64,000 bases of DNA, from positions 2,604,001-2,668,000 of the forward strand of contig NZ_AP024702.1 in NCBI RefSeq assembly GCF_037076345.1, given 5' to 3'. Shown piece by piece: positions 33,503 to 40,332 of this stretch. Position 1 is the stretch's first letter. Every line of letters begins with the position of its first letter. The position numbers were made by a program, and so were the translations under genes. The DNA is from Haloferula helveola (GTDB taxonomy: Bacteria > Verrucomicrobiota > Verrucomicrobiia > Verrucomicrobiales > Akkermansiaceae). The notes under the pieces were generated by a model. It saw only the letters and a list, made by a program, of their open reading frames with translations. It was not told the DNA's origin and searched no databases.

Positions 33503-34840
33503 TCAAAGGCGTGACCGAACCTCCTCCGGCGCGCTCTCGACCAGGTCGGAATTCTCATCCGAGTCGGTTTTCGTGAACACCGCCCGGTCATAGGTGACGT
33601 GCGAGAGATGCCCGTTGCCGTCGTGGATCCAGTACGAGTCGTTGTTCTCCACGAAGATGAACCAGTCGGTTCCCACGTTCGGCACATTGAACCTCAGGGT
33701 GGGATAGGGCGACGGTAGCCGGACCATTTTCAGGGTGATGTTCAGACCCTTTCTCTGGTCCGGGTAGGCGAGTATCTGAATGGTCCCCTTGACCTCCTTG
33801 AGGCGCTTCGGAAGTTCGAACAGATGGACGTGATTGCCGCCGCGGGTGATCATCCGGCGGGCCGCCTGGGCGGCCGTTTCCTTTTCTAGTAGCGGTCGGG
33901 CTTCTTCCTCAAGCGCCGCCATGTCGCCTCCCAGCTCGCGGGCGTAGTGTTCCTCCTCCAGCTTCATGGTGAACGCATTCGATCGCAGGACGCTCTTCGG
34001 TCCGCCGAGTTCTTCCCCCGCCAGTTCCTCCCGGACCGTTTCAGGTGCGGATTTCAGAAGATCGGGGTCGTCATCGACGGTCGTGACCTTCCACGGATGA
34101 TCGGTCTGCTTGACGGGACGCAAGGTGGGCAGGCGGACCACCTTTTCGAGATGTCCGTCACCGGTATAGACCCAGTAGGTCACGACGTCCTCGATGTAGA
34201 TGAACCAATCCGAGTCCGGATCGACCGGACGGACGTTCTGGTAATTGGCGGCTCCGCCCGGTTTGCCGTTGGCCGAGGTGATCCAGAATTGGACCGAACC
34301 GTTCGACTCTTTGGTAAGGACGCTGACCCGGCTGCGGTCCTTGGGCGGTTCGACCAGCAGCTTGTTGAAGTTGCCGAGGGTATTCACCAGCCCCTGCTTT
34401 GCCGGATCGACGGGTTCAGGTTCGGCGTCGGGTTCTGTTTCCGTTGTTTCGGCCACCGACTCCACGGGTTCCTCGATCTCCATCTCTTCCTTCACCTCGT
34501 CGACAATCTCCGCGAGTGTGACTCGGTCCTCGGGCGCCACGAAGACCATTGTCTGGATGATGCTGGCGATGACCATGTAGCCGGTGAAAGTCCCGGCAAT
34601 CGCCGCCGCCTTTCCCGCGCCGACGTAGAACCAGCGCATCAGCGGGAACATCACGATGACGAAGTAGAGCGGGATCACGAGCAGTCCGATGAACTGCGAG
34701 AGAATCGCCAGCGCCCAGACCGGCAGGTAGAACACGAGCGCGATCTTCGGCAGGGAAATGTCGGCTTCGTGCTTCGCATAAAGATGCATGAACAGCGCGA
34801 GGACGAGAAGGTGGGCGGCGACGATGAAGATCAGCAGCAT
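33503..34840 (-). CDS. Membrane protein with duplicated DWFIxxE-YW module (DUF5684-like N-terminus)
   Basis: 445 residues. The first ~110 residues contain four hydrophobic segments (MLLIFIVAAHLLVLALFMHL, ALVFYLPVWALAILSQFIGL, LVIPLYFVIVMFPLMRWFYV, GYMVIASIIQTMVFV), then an acidic linker. Two copies of one domain follow: DSDWFIYIEDVVTYWVYTGD near residue 207 and GTDWFIFVENNDSYWIHDGN near residue 387, each ending in DGHLEKV or NGHLSHV. The protein looks like a membrane-anchored sensor or enzyme with two beta domains. It is divergent from a small lipoprotein gene. I do not recognise the repeated module. Confidence 0.72.
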   Translation of the reverse strand: MLLIFIVAAHLLVLALFMHLYAKHEADISLPKIALVFYLPVWALAILSQFIGLLVIPLYFVIVMFPLMRWFYVGAGKAAAIAGTFTGYMVIASIIQTMVFVAPEDRVTLAEIVDEVKEEMEIEEPVESVAETTETEPDAEPEPVDPAKQGLVNTLGNFNKLLVEPPKDRSRVSVLTKESNGSVQFWITSANGKPGGAANYQNVRPVDPDSDWFIYIEDVVTYWVYTGDGHLEKVVRLPTLRPVKQTDHPWKVTTVDDDPDLLKSAPETVREELAGEELGGPKSVLRSNAFTMKLEEEHYARELGGDMAALEEEARPLLEKETAAQAARRMITRGGNHVHLFELPKRLKEVKGTIQILAYPDQRKGLNITLKMVRLPSPYPTLRFNVPNVGTDWFIFVENNDSYWIHDGNGHLSHVTYDRAVFTKTDSDENSDLVESAPEEVRSRL

Positions 34841-34961
34841 GGGGAGATATGTTCCGTGACAGGCAAGTGTTACGCGTCTTCGCCGTCAAGCGGATCGTCC
34901 GCATGGTCGCCTCCATCAACGGCGAGCTTGTATGTGGGGCGCTTTCCGACGACCGTGGCGC

Positions 34962-35276
34962 ATGATGATCCGCGAAAGTCTACTGGCAGCATGCCTCGGA
35001 GTGTGCGTTGCCTCCTGCGGCATGCCGGTGATCGGAGGAAGCCGGGCTCCGGAAGAGTCGACATGGAATGCCGATGGCGTGTGGCAGCGACAGGCGGGCG
35101 ATCCGCCGGTGTATGTGCCGAAAGGCTACTCGGGATCGGCGGATGAGTCGCAGGGTTCCTTCGTCACCGACAAGCGCGACAAGAAACGCTTTTTCATTCC
35201 GAGCGGAGGTGCCGGAGGGATCAGCGAGGCGGTCCTGCGCAACGACGCCTACAGCAATTCCGGCGGGCGGCCGTAG
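34962..35276 (+). CDS. Small secreted lipoprotein
   Basis: 104 residues from the first of two adjacent ATGs at 34962. MMIRESLLAACLGVCVASCG contains a lipobox (VASC). The mature part (VWQRQAGDPPVYVPKGYSG, KKRFFIPSGGAGGISEAVLR) has no recognised domain. It is divergent from the DWFI-YW protein over 121 bp and converges tightly, at 8 bp, on the DUF1552 gene. Confidence 0.62.
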   Translation: MMIRESLLAACLGVCVASCGMPVIGGSRAPEESTWNADGVWQRQAGDPPVYVPKGYSGSADESQGSFVTDKRDKKRFFIPSGGAGGISEAVLRNDAYSNSGGRP

Positions 35277-35283
35277 CAGCTGC

Positions 35284-36651
35284 TCAGACCTTTCTCAGCG
35301 CACCGGTCGAGTCGCCGAAGCGCTTCTCGTCCACTCCGAACTCCTCGAGCATCCGCAGGTAGAGGTTTGTCAGCGGGACGTCCTCGCCGAGGTCGACGTG
35401 GCGGCCCGGCTTGAAGGCTCCGCCGCCGTTGCCTGCCAGCACGATCGGAAGGTTGTCGTTGTTGTGACGGTTGCCGTCCTTGATGCAGCCGCCATAGACG
35501 ATCATCGAGTTGTGCAGCAGGCTCTTGCCGTCGACATCCTCGGTCGCCTTCATTTTGTCGAGGAAGTAGCCGAACTGCTCCATGTAGAAGCGGTCGATCT
35601 TGCCGATCATCTCCAGCTTCTGCTTGTTCCCCTGGTGGTGGGAAATGCTGTGGTGGCCGGCCGACACGCCGATCTCCTGGAAGCTCCGGTTGCTGCCCTC
35701 GTGGCTGAGCATGAAGGTCGAGATGCGGGTCGAGTCGGTCTTGAAAGCCAGCACCATCATGTCCATCAGCAGGCGCAGGTGCTCTTTGAACGAGTCCGGC
35801 TTGCCACTCGGAGCGCCGACTCCGGGATCCGGTGGCAATCCCATCGACTCGACCTTTTCGATCTGCCGTTCGATCTCGCGCACGCCGGTCAGGTACTCGT
35901 CGAGCTTCTGCTGGTCGTTCTTCCCGAGGTGCCGGTGCAGGGCCTTCGCGTCGTTCTGGATGAAGTCGAGCAACGAGCGCTTTGAGGCATAGCGCTGGCC
36001 GAGGCTGTCGGCGCGCTCCTTGGCGCTGCCGGCGCCGAACAGGCGTTCGAAGACCGAGCGCGGATTCGACTCCGGCGTCATCGGCTGGGTTTCCGAGCGC
36101 CACGAAAGATTGTACTGGTAGGCGCAGGAGTAACCCGAGTCGCACTTGCCCGACTTGCGCACTCCGGCGGTCGAGAGCTCCAGTGATGGCAAGCGGGTCA
36201 CGGCACCTGCCTTCATCGCCGCCACCTGATCGATCGAAATGCCGAGTTGGATATCCGCGCCGGCGGTCTTCCGCGCCCGGGCTCCGGTCAGGAAGGTGGC
36301 ATTGCCGCGGGCGTGGTGACCCGGGCCGTCCTTGCCGGATGTCGCGTTGACCTGCTCGAAGCCGCTGAAAACCTGGAAGTGCTCCTTCAGATGCTTCACC
36401 GGCGCGAAGGTCGAGCCCAGCTCGTAGCCGGCGCCGTTCCCTTTCGGCTGCCAGTTGGAGACGTTCACGCCGTTCGGAATGTACATGTAGGCCATCCGCA
36501 GCGGAGCGCCGCTGGCGGTGGTGGCGATCGGGCGTGATTCGAGTCCTGCAGCCAGCAGGGGCCGGAACGACTCCAACGCAGGCAGTGCCATCGAGACTCC
36601 GACTCCGCGGAGGAATCCGCGCCGTCCCATGCTTCCGATTTGCCGACTCAT
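35284..36651 (-). CDS. DUF1552 protein (Tat signal)
   Basis: 455 residues. The N-terminus has a twin-arginine signal, MGRRGFLRGVGVSMALPALE. DUF1552 landmarks are present: RMAYMYIPNGVNVSNW, QVFSGFEQVNATSGKDGPGH, HARGNATFLTGARARKTAG, SIDQVAAMK, CAYQYNLSW and LLHNSMIVYGGCIKDGNRHN. These proteins belong with the DUF1501-like superfamily and usually sit beside a DUF1592 cytochrome-like protein; here the partner is 1.3 kb to the right. The function is unknown. Folded export through Tat is expected. Confidence 0.93.
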   Translation of the reverse strand: MSRQIGSMGRRGFLRGVGVSMALPALESFRPLLAAGLESRPIATTASGAPLRMAYMYIPNGVNVSNWQPKGNGAGYELGSTFAPVKHLKEHFQVFSGFEQVNATSGKDGPGHHARGNATFLTGARARKTAGADIQLGISIDQVAAMKAGAVTRLPSLELSTAGVRKSGKCDSGYSCAYQYNLSWRSETQPMTPESNPRSVFERLFGAGSAKERADSLGQRYASKRSLLDFIQNDAKALHRHLGKNDQQKLDEYLTGVREIERQIEKVESMGLPPDPGVGAPSGKPDSFKEHLRLLMDMMVLAFKTDSTRISTFMLSHEGSNRSFQEIGVSAGHHSISHHQGNKQKLEMIGKIDRFYMEQFGYFLDKMKATEDVDGKSLLHNSMIVYGGCIKDGNRHNNDNLPIVLAGNGGGAFKPGRHVDLGEDVPLTNLYLRMLEEFGVDEKRFGDSTGALRKV

Positions 36652-37049: not shown

Positions 37050-37607
37050 TTACTCAAGCTCGGTGCTTCTTGAGTGAAATCGGATAAGTCTCTCGAATCG
37101 ATCCGAAAACTTCCATCTTGCGGAGCCTTTGACTTTGTAGGCAGGCGGAGGACTGATTTCAAACTTCGCAAGTCCGCTTGTATAATTGACCACTAGTACA
37201 ACGCCGCGAACGGTTGTTCCAGAGGCGGTCACTTGCGTTTGCATACCCTTTGTATCGACGGACACCACGCTCATTCTCTTACCAACCTTAGGCAGTTGGT
37301 TCATTAGCCTTCGATAGTCGTCGAGATATTCGTCTCGTGCTAGCGTCCAGTTCTCTATGCTCGCAGCCTGGTTGAGGCCTCGGTCGGCATGGGAGGTCCT
37401 GTACTCTTCGAGATCACAAAAATCGTTGAGCACAAGTTGTAGGTCTCTTTCGACCAGGAATCGGAATAGACGCTTGTATAGACCCGCAAGCTCCGGATCA
37501 ACCTGCTCCCGGGCGGTCTCGAAGGGATCCGGCCCAGGTTTTCCGGTGACTTCTGACATCAGCATCGAAGAAGCCAGGACGAGGAGGAGGCGGATGGTGG
37601 CAATCAT
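37050..37607 (-). CDS. Orphan secreted protein in AT-richer DNA
   Basis: 185 residues with a signal peptide (MIATIRLLLVLASSMLMSEVTG). The body is partly helical (LAGLYKRLFRFLVERDLQLVLND, WTLARDEYLDDYRRLMNQLP) followed by a beta-rich part (VVSVDTKGMQTQVTASGTTV). The DNA is visibly less GC-rich than neighbouring genes, which suggests acquisition from elsewhere. It splits the DUF1592/DUF1552 pair and has hairpin repeats on both sides. The family is not recognised. Confidence 0.65.
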   Translation of the reverse strand: MIATIRLLLVLASSMLMSEVTGKPGPDPFETAREQVDPELAGLYKRLFRFLVERDLQLVLNDFCDLEEYRTSHADRGLNQAASIENWTLARDEYLDDYRRLMNQLPKVGKRMSVVSVDTKGMQTQVTASGTTVRGVVLVVNYTSGLAKFEISPPPAYKVKGSARWKFSDRFERLIRFHSRSTELE

Positions 37608-37953: not shown

Positions 37954-40266
37954 CTATTCCGCGCCACGGCGCCTCTGGAACGGCGCGCTTTCGATGATGC
38001 CGACGAGCAATTCCTTGAGGCTGCCGTCGTGGGTTTCCATGCGGTCGACGAGCTGGTCGATGGTGGTCGCATCGTAGTACTCGACACCGCGACCGATGGC
38101 ATACGTAAGCATCTTTTCCGCAAGGCAGCGGTAGAAGTCGTCCCGGCGTTTGCCAGCGAGGATCTCCTTGAGTTCGGCGACGTTCGCGAACTTCTCTCCG
38201 GTGATCAGCTCACCGCCCGCATCGATCGGCTTGCCGTTCTCCTCGCGACGGAACTGGCCGAGCGCGTTGAAGTTCTCAAGCCCCAGCCCGATCGGATCCA
38301 TGCGCGCGTGGCAACCGCGGCAGTCCGGCTTGTCGCGGTGGATCTGCATCATTTCGCGCATCGTGTTCTTGCCCTCTCCCGACTCCTTGCCTTCCTCAAG
38401 CTCCGGGACGCCGGGCGGGGCCGGTGGCGCCGGCGTGCCGAGCAGGTTGTCGAGGACGAACAATCCGCGCTTCACCGGCGAGGTGCGCGTGGGGTTCGAG
38501 CTGACAATCAGATACGACCCGTGCGTCAGCACTCCGCCGCGCTCGGGGTGCTCGGTGAGGTCGACCGGCACGAACTTGTCTCCCTCGACGCCCGCGATCC
38601 CGTAGTAATCCGCGAGTCGTTCGTTGAGAAACGTGTACCTCGCCGAAATGAGTTCCTCGGCCGGCCGTTCCTCGCGCAGGACGAAGTCGAAAAGCATCTC
38701 GGTCTCGCGGCGCATCGCTTCCCGCAGGCGGACGTCGAACACGAGCGATGCCTCCCGTTTCGACTTCAACCCGAGAATCTCCTGGGCCTGCACCGGCAGG
38801 GTTTCGAGGTCGCGCGTCTGCAGCCACTGGCCGACGAAATTCTCCACCAGCCGGTCCGAGCGCGGGTCGGCCAGCATGCGGTCGATCTGGGCGTGCAGTT
38901 GTTTGCGGAGCTGCTTGTTGAAGGCGAGGCTCAGAAGCTCGTCATCGGGCACCGAGCTCCAGAGGAAAAACGACAGCCGCGACGCCAGCGCGTACTCGTC
39001 GAGCAGGACGACCTTGCCCGGGTTGTTCGGTTCCGGCTGGATCTCCACCCGGAACAGGAACCGCGGGGAGCATAGGCAGGTGGTGATCGCGGCGCGGATG
39101 CCGTCCTCAAACGACTTGCCCGGCAGGCGGTCGACCTCCTTCACGATTCCGACCAGCCGCTCGATCGTCGAGCCGTCGAGCGGACGGCGGAAGGCACGGC
39201 TGACGAAGCTCCGCATGATCTTCCGCGCGTAGTTCTCGCGTGCCTTGTCGTCCTCCGGCGCGGGTCCGTCGACGAAGATCATCTGGTAGCCCTTCGCATA
39301 CTCCCGCTGCTTTCCGCCGAGCGGCCCCTGGACGATCACGCGCTGCAGTGTCAGCGCCAGCTCCTCCTCGTCCGGTCCCGGCTCCTTGACCGGTGAAAGC
39401 TCGACCTCGATCGCCTGTTTGCCCTTTTTCAACGGCACCCGCCCGCGCATCTGGATCACCTTGCTCTGGTCCCAGCCGAGCACCTCTTCACCGAGCTGCT
39501 TCTCGCCGCAGCGCACCTTCAGCTTCGCCTCATGGCCGGTCGCTTCGGTCGCGCCGTGGGTCGCGTATTCGACCGTGATCTGGTAGTCGCCCGGCCACTT
39601 GACGGGGACTTCCGCACGCACGGTCTGCTTCTTCCGAAAAGGCATCCAGCCGGCGTCGCCACCCTTGAACTCGCTGCCGGAGATGTCGGTGCGCGGCACT
39701 TGCGCCGCAGCGCCCTTCGGCAGGGCGAGGTCCACGACCTGCTCGGCGGCCGCGATGTACTTTTCCATCAGCAGCGGGGAAATCGACAGCACGTCCCCGA
39801 TGTTGTCGAAGCCGTAGCCGGTGTCGTCGGGCGGAAACACGTCCTCGGCCTGGAACTCGACGCCGAGCAGGTCGAACACGGCGTAGCGGTACTCCGTGCG
39901 GTTCAGCCGCCGGATCGTCACCCGGCCGGGGTCGGGATTTTCCGGATCCAGCTTGAACACGTCCGTCTGGATCCAGTTGAGCAGGGTATCCTTCTCCTTC
40001 TGGGTGAGCTGGTCTTCGTCCGAAGGCGGCATGATCTGGCTGCGGACATTCTGCCAGATGTGCATCCAGTGCTCGCGGTCATCGAGGTGCTTGGAAAGGT
40101 CCCCAAACTCATCCATCGAGAACTTTCCCTTCGATGAGCCGTCGCCGTGGCAGCCGTAGCAGTAGAACTCAAGAATCGGCAGGATATCCTTCCGATACGT
40201 CTCTTCCGGCGAGGCGGCCACGGGCGCCGCCAGCAGCACCAGTCCCGGCCACAGCTTGAGCATCAT
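37954..40266 (-). CDS. DUF1592-type cytochrome-like protein (PSD1 family)
   Basis: 770 residues from the first of two ATGs at 40266, with a signal peptide (MMLKLWPGLVLLAAPVAA). Near the N-terminus is a CxxCH haem-binding motif, CYGCHGDG, in a Planctomycete-cytochrome-like domain (ILPILEFYCYGCHGDG, SQIMPPSDEDQLTQKEK). It continues with RRLNRTEYRYAVFDLLGV (DUF1587), FVSRAFRRPLDG (DUF1592), QTRDLETLPVQAQEIL and, near the end, RDKPDCRGCHARMDPIGLGL (DUF1588) and MLTYAIGRGVEYYDATTIDQ (DUF1585). The second CxxCH (CRGCH) is near the C-terminus. It is the usual partner of a DUF1552 protein. The role is unknown. Confidence 0.93.
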   Translation of the reverse strand: MMLKLWPGLVLLAAPVAASPEETYRKDILPILEFYCYGCHGDGSSKGKFSMDEFGDLSKHLDDREHWMHIWQNVRSQIMPPSDEDQLTQKEKDTLLNWIQTDVFKLDPENPDPGRVTIRRLNRTEYRYAVFDLLGVEFQAEDVFPPDDTGYGFDNIGDVLSISPLLMEKYIAAAEQVVDLALPKGAAAQVPRTDISGSEFKGGDAGWMPFRKKQTVRAEVPVKWPGDYQITVEYATHGATEATGHEAKLKVRCGEKQLGEEVLGWDQSKVIQMRGRVPLKKGKQAIEVELSPVKEPGPDEEELALTLQRVIVQGPLGGKQREYAKGYQMIFVDGPAPEDDKARENYARKIMRSFVSRAFRRPLDGSTIERLVGIVKEVDRLPGKSFEDGIRAAITTCLCSPRFLFRVEIQPEPNNPGKVVLLDEYALASRLSFFLWSSVPDDELLSLAFNKQLRKQLHAQIDRMLADPRSDRLVENFVGQWLQTRDLETLPVQAQEILGLKSKREASLVFDVRLREAMRRETEMLFDFVLREERPAEELISARYTFLNERLADYYGIAGVEGDKFVPVDLTEHPERGGVLTHGSYLIVSSNPTRTSPVKRGLFVLDNLLGTPAPPAPPGVPELEEGKESGEGKNTMREMMQIHRDKPDCRGCHARMDPIGLGLENFNALGQFRREENGKPIDAGGELITGEKFANVAELKEILAGKRRDDFYRCLAEKMLTYAIGRGVEYYDATTIDQLVDRMETHDGSLKELLVGIIESAPFQRRRGAE

Positions 40267-40332
40267 GGAACCTACTTCATTAATTGCCGATCCTGTCGCA
40301 AAAATCCGCATGCACGAACCGGCTTGCCTGAA

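Follow-up and report, generated by a model that had tools for sequence, protein, structure and literature searches.

A Haloferula helveola membrane protein carrying two copies of a module related to small lipoproteins of Verrucomicrobiota

In a 64,000-nucleotide stretch of the Haloferula helveola genome (contig NZ_AP024702.1, positions 2,604,001 to 2,668,000; here called the window), one gene encodes a 445-residue protein that joins a four-transmembrane (4-TM) domain to two copies, A and B, of a module that appears to be undescribed in Pfam, NCBIfam, and PHROGs. Sequence comparisons showed that copies A and B share ancestry with one another and with single-copy modules in small lipoproteins and secreted proteins, and that a rare 4-TM protein that occurs on its own is a homologue of the N-terminal half. 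Our working model, to which we give an even chance, is that the protein is anchored in the inner membrane, displays its tandem all-β envelope modules in the periplasm, and acts as a tethered bivalent binder.

The anatomy of the protein is well supported. Its gene lies on the minus strand (33503 to 34840, 445 codons and a stop) and starts with ATG; no strong ribosome-binding sequence was apparent by eye in the 60 bases 5' of this codon. Its GC content by codon position (0.635/0.374/0.794) resembles that of most neighboring genes. The N-terminal membrane domain (residues 1 to 99, 34544 to 34840), delimited by hydropathy and homology, comprises about four TM segments with the motif A-K-H-E-A-D in loop 1. 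Hydropathy peaks at about residues 1 to 20, 31 to 47, 49 to 67, and 78 to 98 (limits set by eye) agree with the four N-terminal hydrophobic segments given in a preliminary description of this DNA, and a count of 18 Asp/Glu versus 3 Lys/Arg in residues 99 to 150 agrees with the acidic linker that it placed after them. This linker (residues 100 to 150, 34391 to 34543), modeled mostly with low pLDDT, leads into copy A (residues 150 to 278, 34007 to 34393), whose core, DWFIYIEDVVTYWVYTGDGHL, occupies residues 211 to 231. A spacer predicted with low confidence to be helical (residues 279 to 330, 33851 to 34006) is followed by copy B (residues 331 to 445, 33506 to 33850), with the core DWFIFVENNDSYWIHDGNGHL at residues 392 to 412. 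There is no cysteine among the 445 residues.

The two DWFI...GHL cores begin at residues 211 and 392. Each spans 21 residues, and an ungapped alignment of the two shows 11 of 21 identities. When copy A was compared with copy B by BLASTP, the match was 36% over 64 amino acids (E = 2e-12), and none of 2,000 shuffles (best score, 56) attained their Smith-Waterman score of 111. These values bear out the original reading of the repeats as two copies of one domain. The similarity also continues beyond the DWFI...GHL motif into the C-terminal D-L-[LV]-x-S-A-P-x-x-V-R-x-x-L of each copy. The repeats had further been said to share the same spacing, which holds inside the 21-residue core but neither before it nor after GHL: copy A (about residues 150 to 278) is longer than copy B (about residues 331 to 445) and has nine extra residues after GHL in the BLASTP alignment, and the copies also differ ahead of the core.

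The module is not peculiar to the window protein, in which it had been described, since small single-copy secreted proteins and lipoproteins of Verrucomicrobiota carry it as well. A first contig scan with the window protein returned no relative, and a second with a lipoprotein alignment returned four loci. Weak matches within the genus pointed to small proteins of ~175 amino acids that, with a hydrophobic N-terminal signal and an invariant Cys (11/11), are lipoproteins. When one of them was used as the query, matches at E < 1e-6 were obtained in 9 of 18 genus genomes. In the window's own genome, the same query gave five matches at chance level (E = 0.07 to 0.77), two of which were the copies in the window protein (E = 0.073 and 0.39), and pairwise comparison of lipoprotein and window protein would not by itself have been convincing. 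A profile built from 12 lipoproteins of the window's genus only, with the window protein excluded, gave a clearer result. Against 2,662 open reading frames (ORFs), this profile matched the window protein at E = 5.9e-10, while the best unrelated ORF scored 0.18 and the best reversed sequence 0.26; a further locus, L061, fell between the window protein and the best unrelated ORF at E = 0.0077. The profile aligned to two stretches of the window protein, residues 182 to 233 and 386 to 416, one per copy, with domain scores of 16.7 and 17.5.

Profile searches at E <= 0.01 found the module in 17 of 384 genomes of the class and 18 of 195 genomes of the family, and at E <= 0.001 in 11 of 387 genomes of the phylum; all three counts include the window's genome and are probably lower bounds, since only the best 11 (class and phylum) or up to 23 (family) candidates per genome were scored. 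The alignments used for these searches contain copies A and B, so the E values that they give for the window copies are not independent. Among the candidates scored in the window's genome, copies A and B were the only matches, although a more divergent copy there may have escaped notice. The single match outside the class (L096, E = 2.7e-6 in the phylum search) is known from the profile alone.

The more distant relatives read in the DNA (L074, L075, L078, L080, and L081) are small single-copy proteins that appear by eye to be secreted. Together with L076, they share the core and a similar C-terminal helix with the window module; they differ from the window protein in having a single copy and other partners, and L074 is 18% and 26% identical to copies A and B, respectively. 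L076 has an unusual architecture: its open frame (L076:1-1818) contains sigma-70 region 2, sigma-70 region 4, and DUF3738, all by Pfam, followed by one β-module at the end. In 23 module instances, the W at the first core position and the second W were always present, G was present in 21, and F, E, and L were present in 20 each, with the reservations that the instances were picked partly by a pattern requiring W, so that 23/23 is partly built in, and that they include the borderline L061 and L083 (E = 0.0079), possibly nonmembers. The count leaves out L079/L115, L082, L084, L086, L095 to L098, L100, L116 to L119, and L123; 10 of the 15 loci queried (L095 to L098, L100, L115 to L118, and L123) gave nothing with the search pattern used and were not read. 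Both window copies retain the most conserved residues of the family, that is, both tryptophans together with F, E, G, and L.

The curated libraries offered no name for the module. The sole Pfam match of the window protein was to DUF7206 (PF23836), at 14.8 bits and E = 0.045, below the gathering score of 25.6 bits; we rejected this identity because the match is subthreshold. The family was not listed for any of 13 related proteins scanned. NCBIfam gave no match for the window protein, and PHROGs gave none for the two proteins scanned. Among module relatives compared with curated families, there was no match at E < 0.1 (best values, 0.16 to 0.24), and sequence searches of the PDB returned nothing useful (the best E value was 0.42 when the module alignment served as the query and 0.61 for the window protein). 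The strong match to a known domain that a profile search against Pfam might have produced was thus absent, and the preliminary statements that the module could be placed in no family and was a poorly described domain were fair: there was no match above the cutoff in Pfam or NCBIfam and none at all in PHROGs. Literature searches on the module found nothing, although these were word based and absence from print cannot be concluded from them.

The genus lipoproteins occupy a characteristic place in the genome. Eight of nine lipoprotein loci have, on one strand, ftsY, one to three lipoprotein genes, a ketoacyl synthase gene, and an L,D-transpeptidase/HAD gene; the ninth (L059) has the ketoacyl synthase and L,D-transpeptidase/HAD genes without ftsY. 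In the window's genome, the three partners were recognized by Pfam as an SRP54 GTPase, a ketoacyl-synt protein, and a YkuD protein with HAD. Of the 17 genus genomes in which ftsY was matched strongly, 8 carry a lipoprotein gene in the slot, and in the other 9, the window's included, no more than about 110 bases separate ftsY from the synthase gene; in the window's case, the ftsY and ketoacyl synthase genes overlap by four bases. A comparison of homologue neighborhoods, as had been proposed, thus uncovered the order ftsY-lipoprotein-ketoacyl synthase in 8/17 genus genomes and not at the window protein, whose gene lies outside this slot, ~2.7 Mb from ftsY on the contig. We dropped a scenario in which the fusion simply took the lipoprotein's place. 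The slot is likewise without a lipoprotein in G013, G017, and G014, the three members of the genus whose FtsY is most similar, so the empty slot in the window's genome is no proof of such a replacement. Separately, as seen at L102:8132-11144, ftsY, the ketoacyl-synthase-like gene, and the L,D-transpeptidase/HAD fusion stay together in the genus, and the lipoprotein between the first two is optional.

The ftsY-locus lipoproteins (L052 to L060 and L064 to L067) have the same WF[IV][YF]xE....[LY]WxxxG...L core as the window copies, with strands ahead of it, and most of them share the P-x-x-[VL]-[RQ] ending of the window module. Unlike the window protein, they have a single copy, a lipobox-type Cys signal, a Gly/Ser-rich loop, a PS[LIF] ending, and a location between ftsY and the ketoacyl synthase gene. 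The PS[LIF] C terminus was found in 12 of 12 lipoproteins and is absent from the window protein; in the L052 to L060 lipoproteins, this conserved extreme C terminus could be a recognition tail. The lipoprotein genes at L064 equal those on contig C110 of G005, a genome assigned to the window's genus, and the title of L064, "Akkermansia muciniphila MAG," may be misassigned.

The membrane half has a separate set of relatives. It is 40% identical over 96 residues to L003, which is encoded as a stand-alone protein in an order-level relative. With residues 1 to 106 as the query, relatives were found in 3 of 238 other genomes of the order: G026 (E = 1.6e-18), G458 (E = 1.5e-8, with one stop in frame), and G014 (E = 8.1e-4). 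A search with an alignment of four membrane-half sequences gave matches in 5 genomes among the 384 of the class, but three of these (the window's, G014, and G026) had themselves supplied rows of the alignment. The resulting family is rare and consists, besides the window domain (34544 to 34840), of stand-alone hydrophobic 4-TM proteins of ~100 amino acids (L003, L004, L006, L106, and L107) that have the same loop motif, [RK]-H-[ED]-A-[DE], and lack the β-modules. The motif was present in 5/5 stand-alone proteins checked, a set that does not contain the G458 match, and the two members scanned had no Pfam match.

The loops of the membrane domain contain two (loop 1), zero (loop 2), and two (loop 3) Lys/Arg residues, and an acidic stretch follows TM4. 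By the positive-inside rule, these charges provide weak evidence that both ends of the window protein lie outside the cytoplasm. This orientation would agree with the location of the module in the lipoproteins, which, given their signal and invariant Cys, should be extracytoplasmic.

Membrane-tethered small periplasmic β-domains are a known kind of protein. In our working model, the 4-TM domain would anchor the window protein in the inner membrane, and copies A and B would lie on the periplasmic side, as in the lipoprotein relatives. The module would be a ligand- or protein-binding domain rather than an enzyme, and two copies combined with a membrane domain would make a tethered bivalent binder; its putative partner would most likely be an envelope protein or a glycan. 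The fusion may then serve a purpose similar to that of the lipoproteins in the window's genome, where the searches turned up no lipoprotein copy. A binding or sensing role for the module is an inference, as these analyses found no ligand, partner, or catalytic signature, and the role of the conserved W, F, E, W, and G may be purely structural.

It is also conceivable, though we consider it unlikely, that the protein is a sensor whose periplasmic copies respond to an envelope signal, which the 4-TM domain relays to the cytoplasm through the loop motif (R/K-H-E-A-D). The conservation of the loop 1 motif in the window protein and in all five stand-alone relatives checked would fit such a relay, and the joining of the module to sigma-70 regions 2 and 4 and DUF3738 in L076 is suggestive of signaling, although that frame was read as open in DNA alone and not as one cellular protein. 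However, no known signaling domain was matched in the window protein by Pfam or NCBIfam, and none of seven neighboring genes scanned matched a known regulator family.

AlphaFold gave a model of modest quality for the full-length window protein, with a mean pLDDT of 60.6 and a pTM of 0.40. Block means of pLDDT were 70 to 90 in much of copy A and 57 to 81 in residues 391 to 445 of copy B; the copy B strands ahead of residue 390 were at about 43 to 52, and this copy was modeled with almost no aligned relatives. Predicted strands in copy A span residues 156 to 163, 169 to 179, 182 to 191, 203 to 206, 213 to 216, 221 to 225, 231 to 236, and 250 to 254, and those in copy B span residues 354 to 361, 367 to 374, 394 to 399, 402 to 406, 412 to 418, and 421 to 427; two short helices are predicted in each copy, and the last strands and the helices share the same order. 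A lipoprotein modeled from nine aligned sequences (pLDDT, 77.8; pTM, 0.72) shows the same succession of eight strands and two short helices as copy A, although the two models share aligned lipoproteins and are not independent. The module is thus predicted to be an all-β meander with two short helices.

At E <= 0.001, Foldseek found no match for either model in the PDB or for the lipoprotein model in BFVD. With VIA-align, the β part of both models reached Z scores of about 5 to 6.5 and never 7; for Z scores below 8, the program cautions that a match can reflect nothing more than a shared arrangement, and families missing from the matches are not excluded. Residues 142 to 270 superimposed on 2gop with a Z score of 6.0 and a root mean square deviation (RMSD) of 2.6 over 81 residues; we take 2gop and many of the other best-matching chains of both models to be β-propellers, and we presume the same of the WD40, TolB-like, and methylamine dehydrogenase matches. 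The matches of the lipoprotein model include HIRA, nucleoporin, and GATOR2 chains, and non-propeller structures such as rotavirus VP8* also appear among the VIA-align rows. Compared with β-propellers, the module matches locally in its antiparallel strand runs; it has only about eight strands and no sequence match. These matches name no fold, and a propeller-like meander is a lead from the models rather than a result.

The presumed propellers among the best matches, 2gop included, nevertheless raise the possibility that the protein is a structural or assembly unit, in which two propeller-like meanders self-associate into a larger β structure and the fusion links two such units. We regard this as improbable, because Foldseek returned nothing at its threshold, no VIA-align Z score reached 7, and non-propellers appear among the matches too.

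Only the window's genome showed the combination of a 4-TM domain with two module copies: no full-length homologue of the fusion was found in the 37 other genomes searched. This restriction would suit a chance or decaying fusion of a membrane gene with a former lipoprotein gene that has little present function, as would the occurrence of two flanking genes: the 380-amino-acid neighbor was found in three of six genomes and the 114-amino-acid neighbor in none of six, the latter without a positive control. Yet the 445-codon frame is intact, its GC content by codon position is normal, and neither copy has lost any of the six residues most conserved in the family. We doubt this explanation about as much as the assembly unit. 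The synteny of the fusion's own neighbors is not informative.

Several features of this neighborhood may be recorded in their own right. The 114-amino-acid ORF (34932 to 35276) has a lipobox-like start and is divergent from the fusion gene, and a 185-amino-acid ORF at 37050 to 37607 has a GC content of 0.522 compared with 0.631 for the window; neither matched a Pfam family at E <= 0.01. Two genes on the same strand encode DUF1552 (35284 to 36651) and DUF1587/1592/1588/1585/1595, of the planctomycete-type cytochrome kind (37954 to 40311). We dropped a proposed synteny between the window and the lipoprotein loci through DUF1552/DUF1592-type genes, whose order and distance differ.

In a far more speculative vein, and with very little expectation that it is correct, the module might be a half-ring of two propeller-like meanders that works only when paired: the lipoproteins, whose genes stand in tandem in some genomes, would pair with each other in the envelope, and the fusion would be a fixed receptor, for which the sigma-70/DUF3738 frame elsewhere suggests a possible link to envelope signaling. 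If so, the fusion would turn a diffusible, lipid-anchored pair into a fixed membrane receptor.

Our analyses expose a Verrucomicrobiota envelope domain family without a curated match above the cutoff in the libraries searched; in one genus, 8 of 17 genomes encode it beside ftsY and the gene for an L,D-transpeptidase. The settings of the module are three: single lipoproteins, a tandem anchored in the membrane, and the end of a frame resembling a sigma factor. Proteins that had no annotation thereby become recognizable as a set and provide a starting point for work on their topology, partners, and fold.
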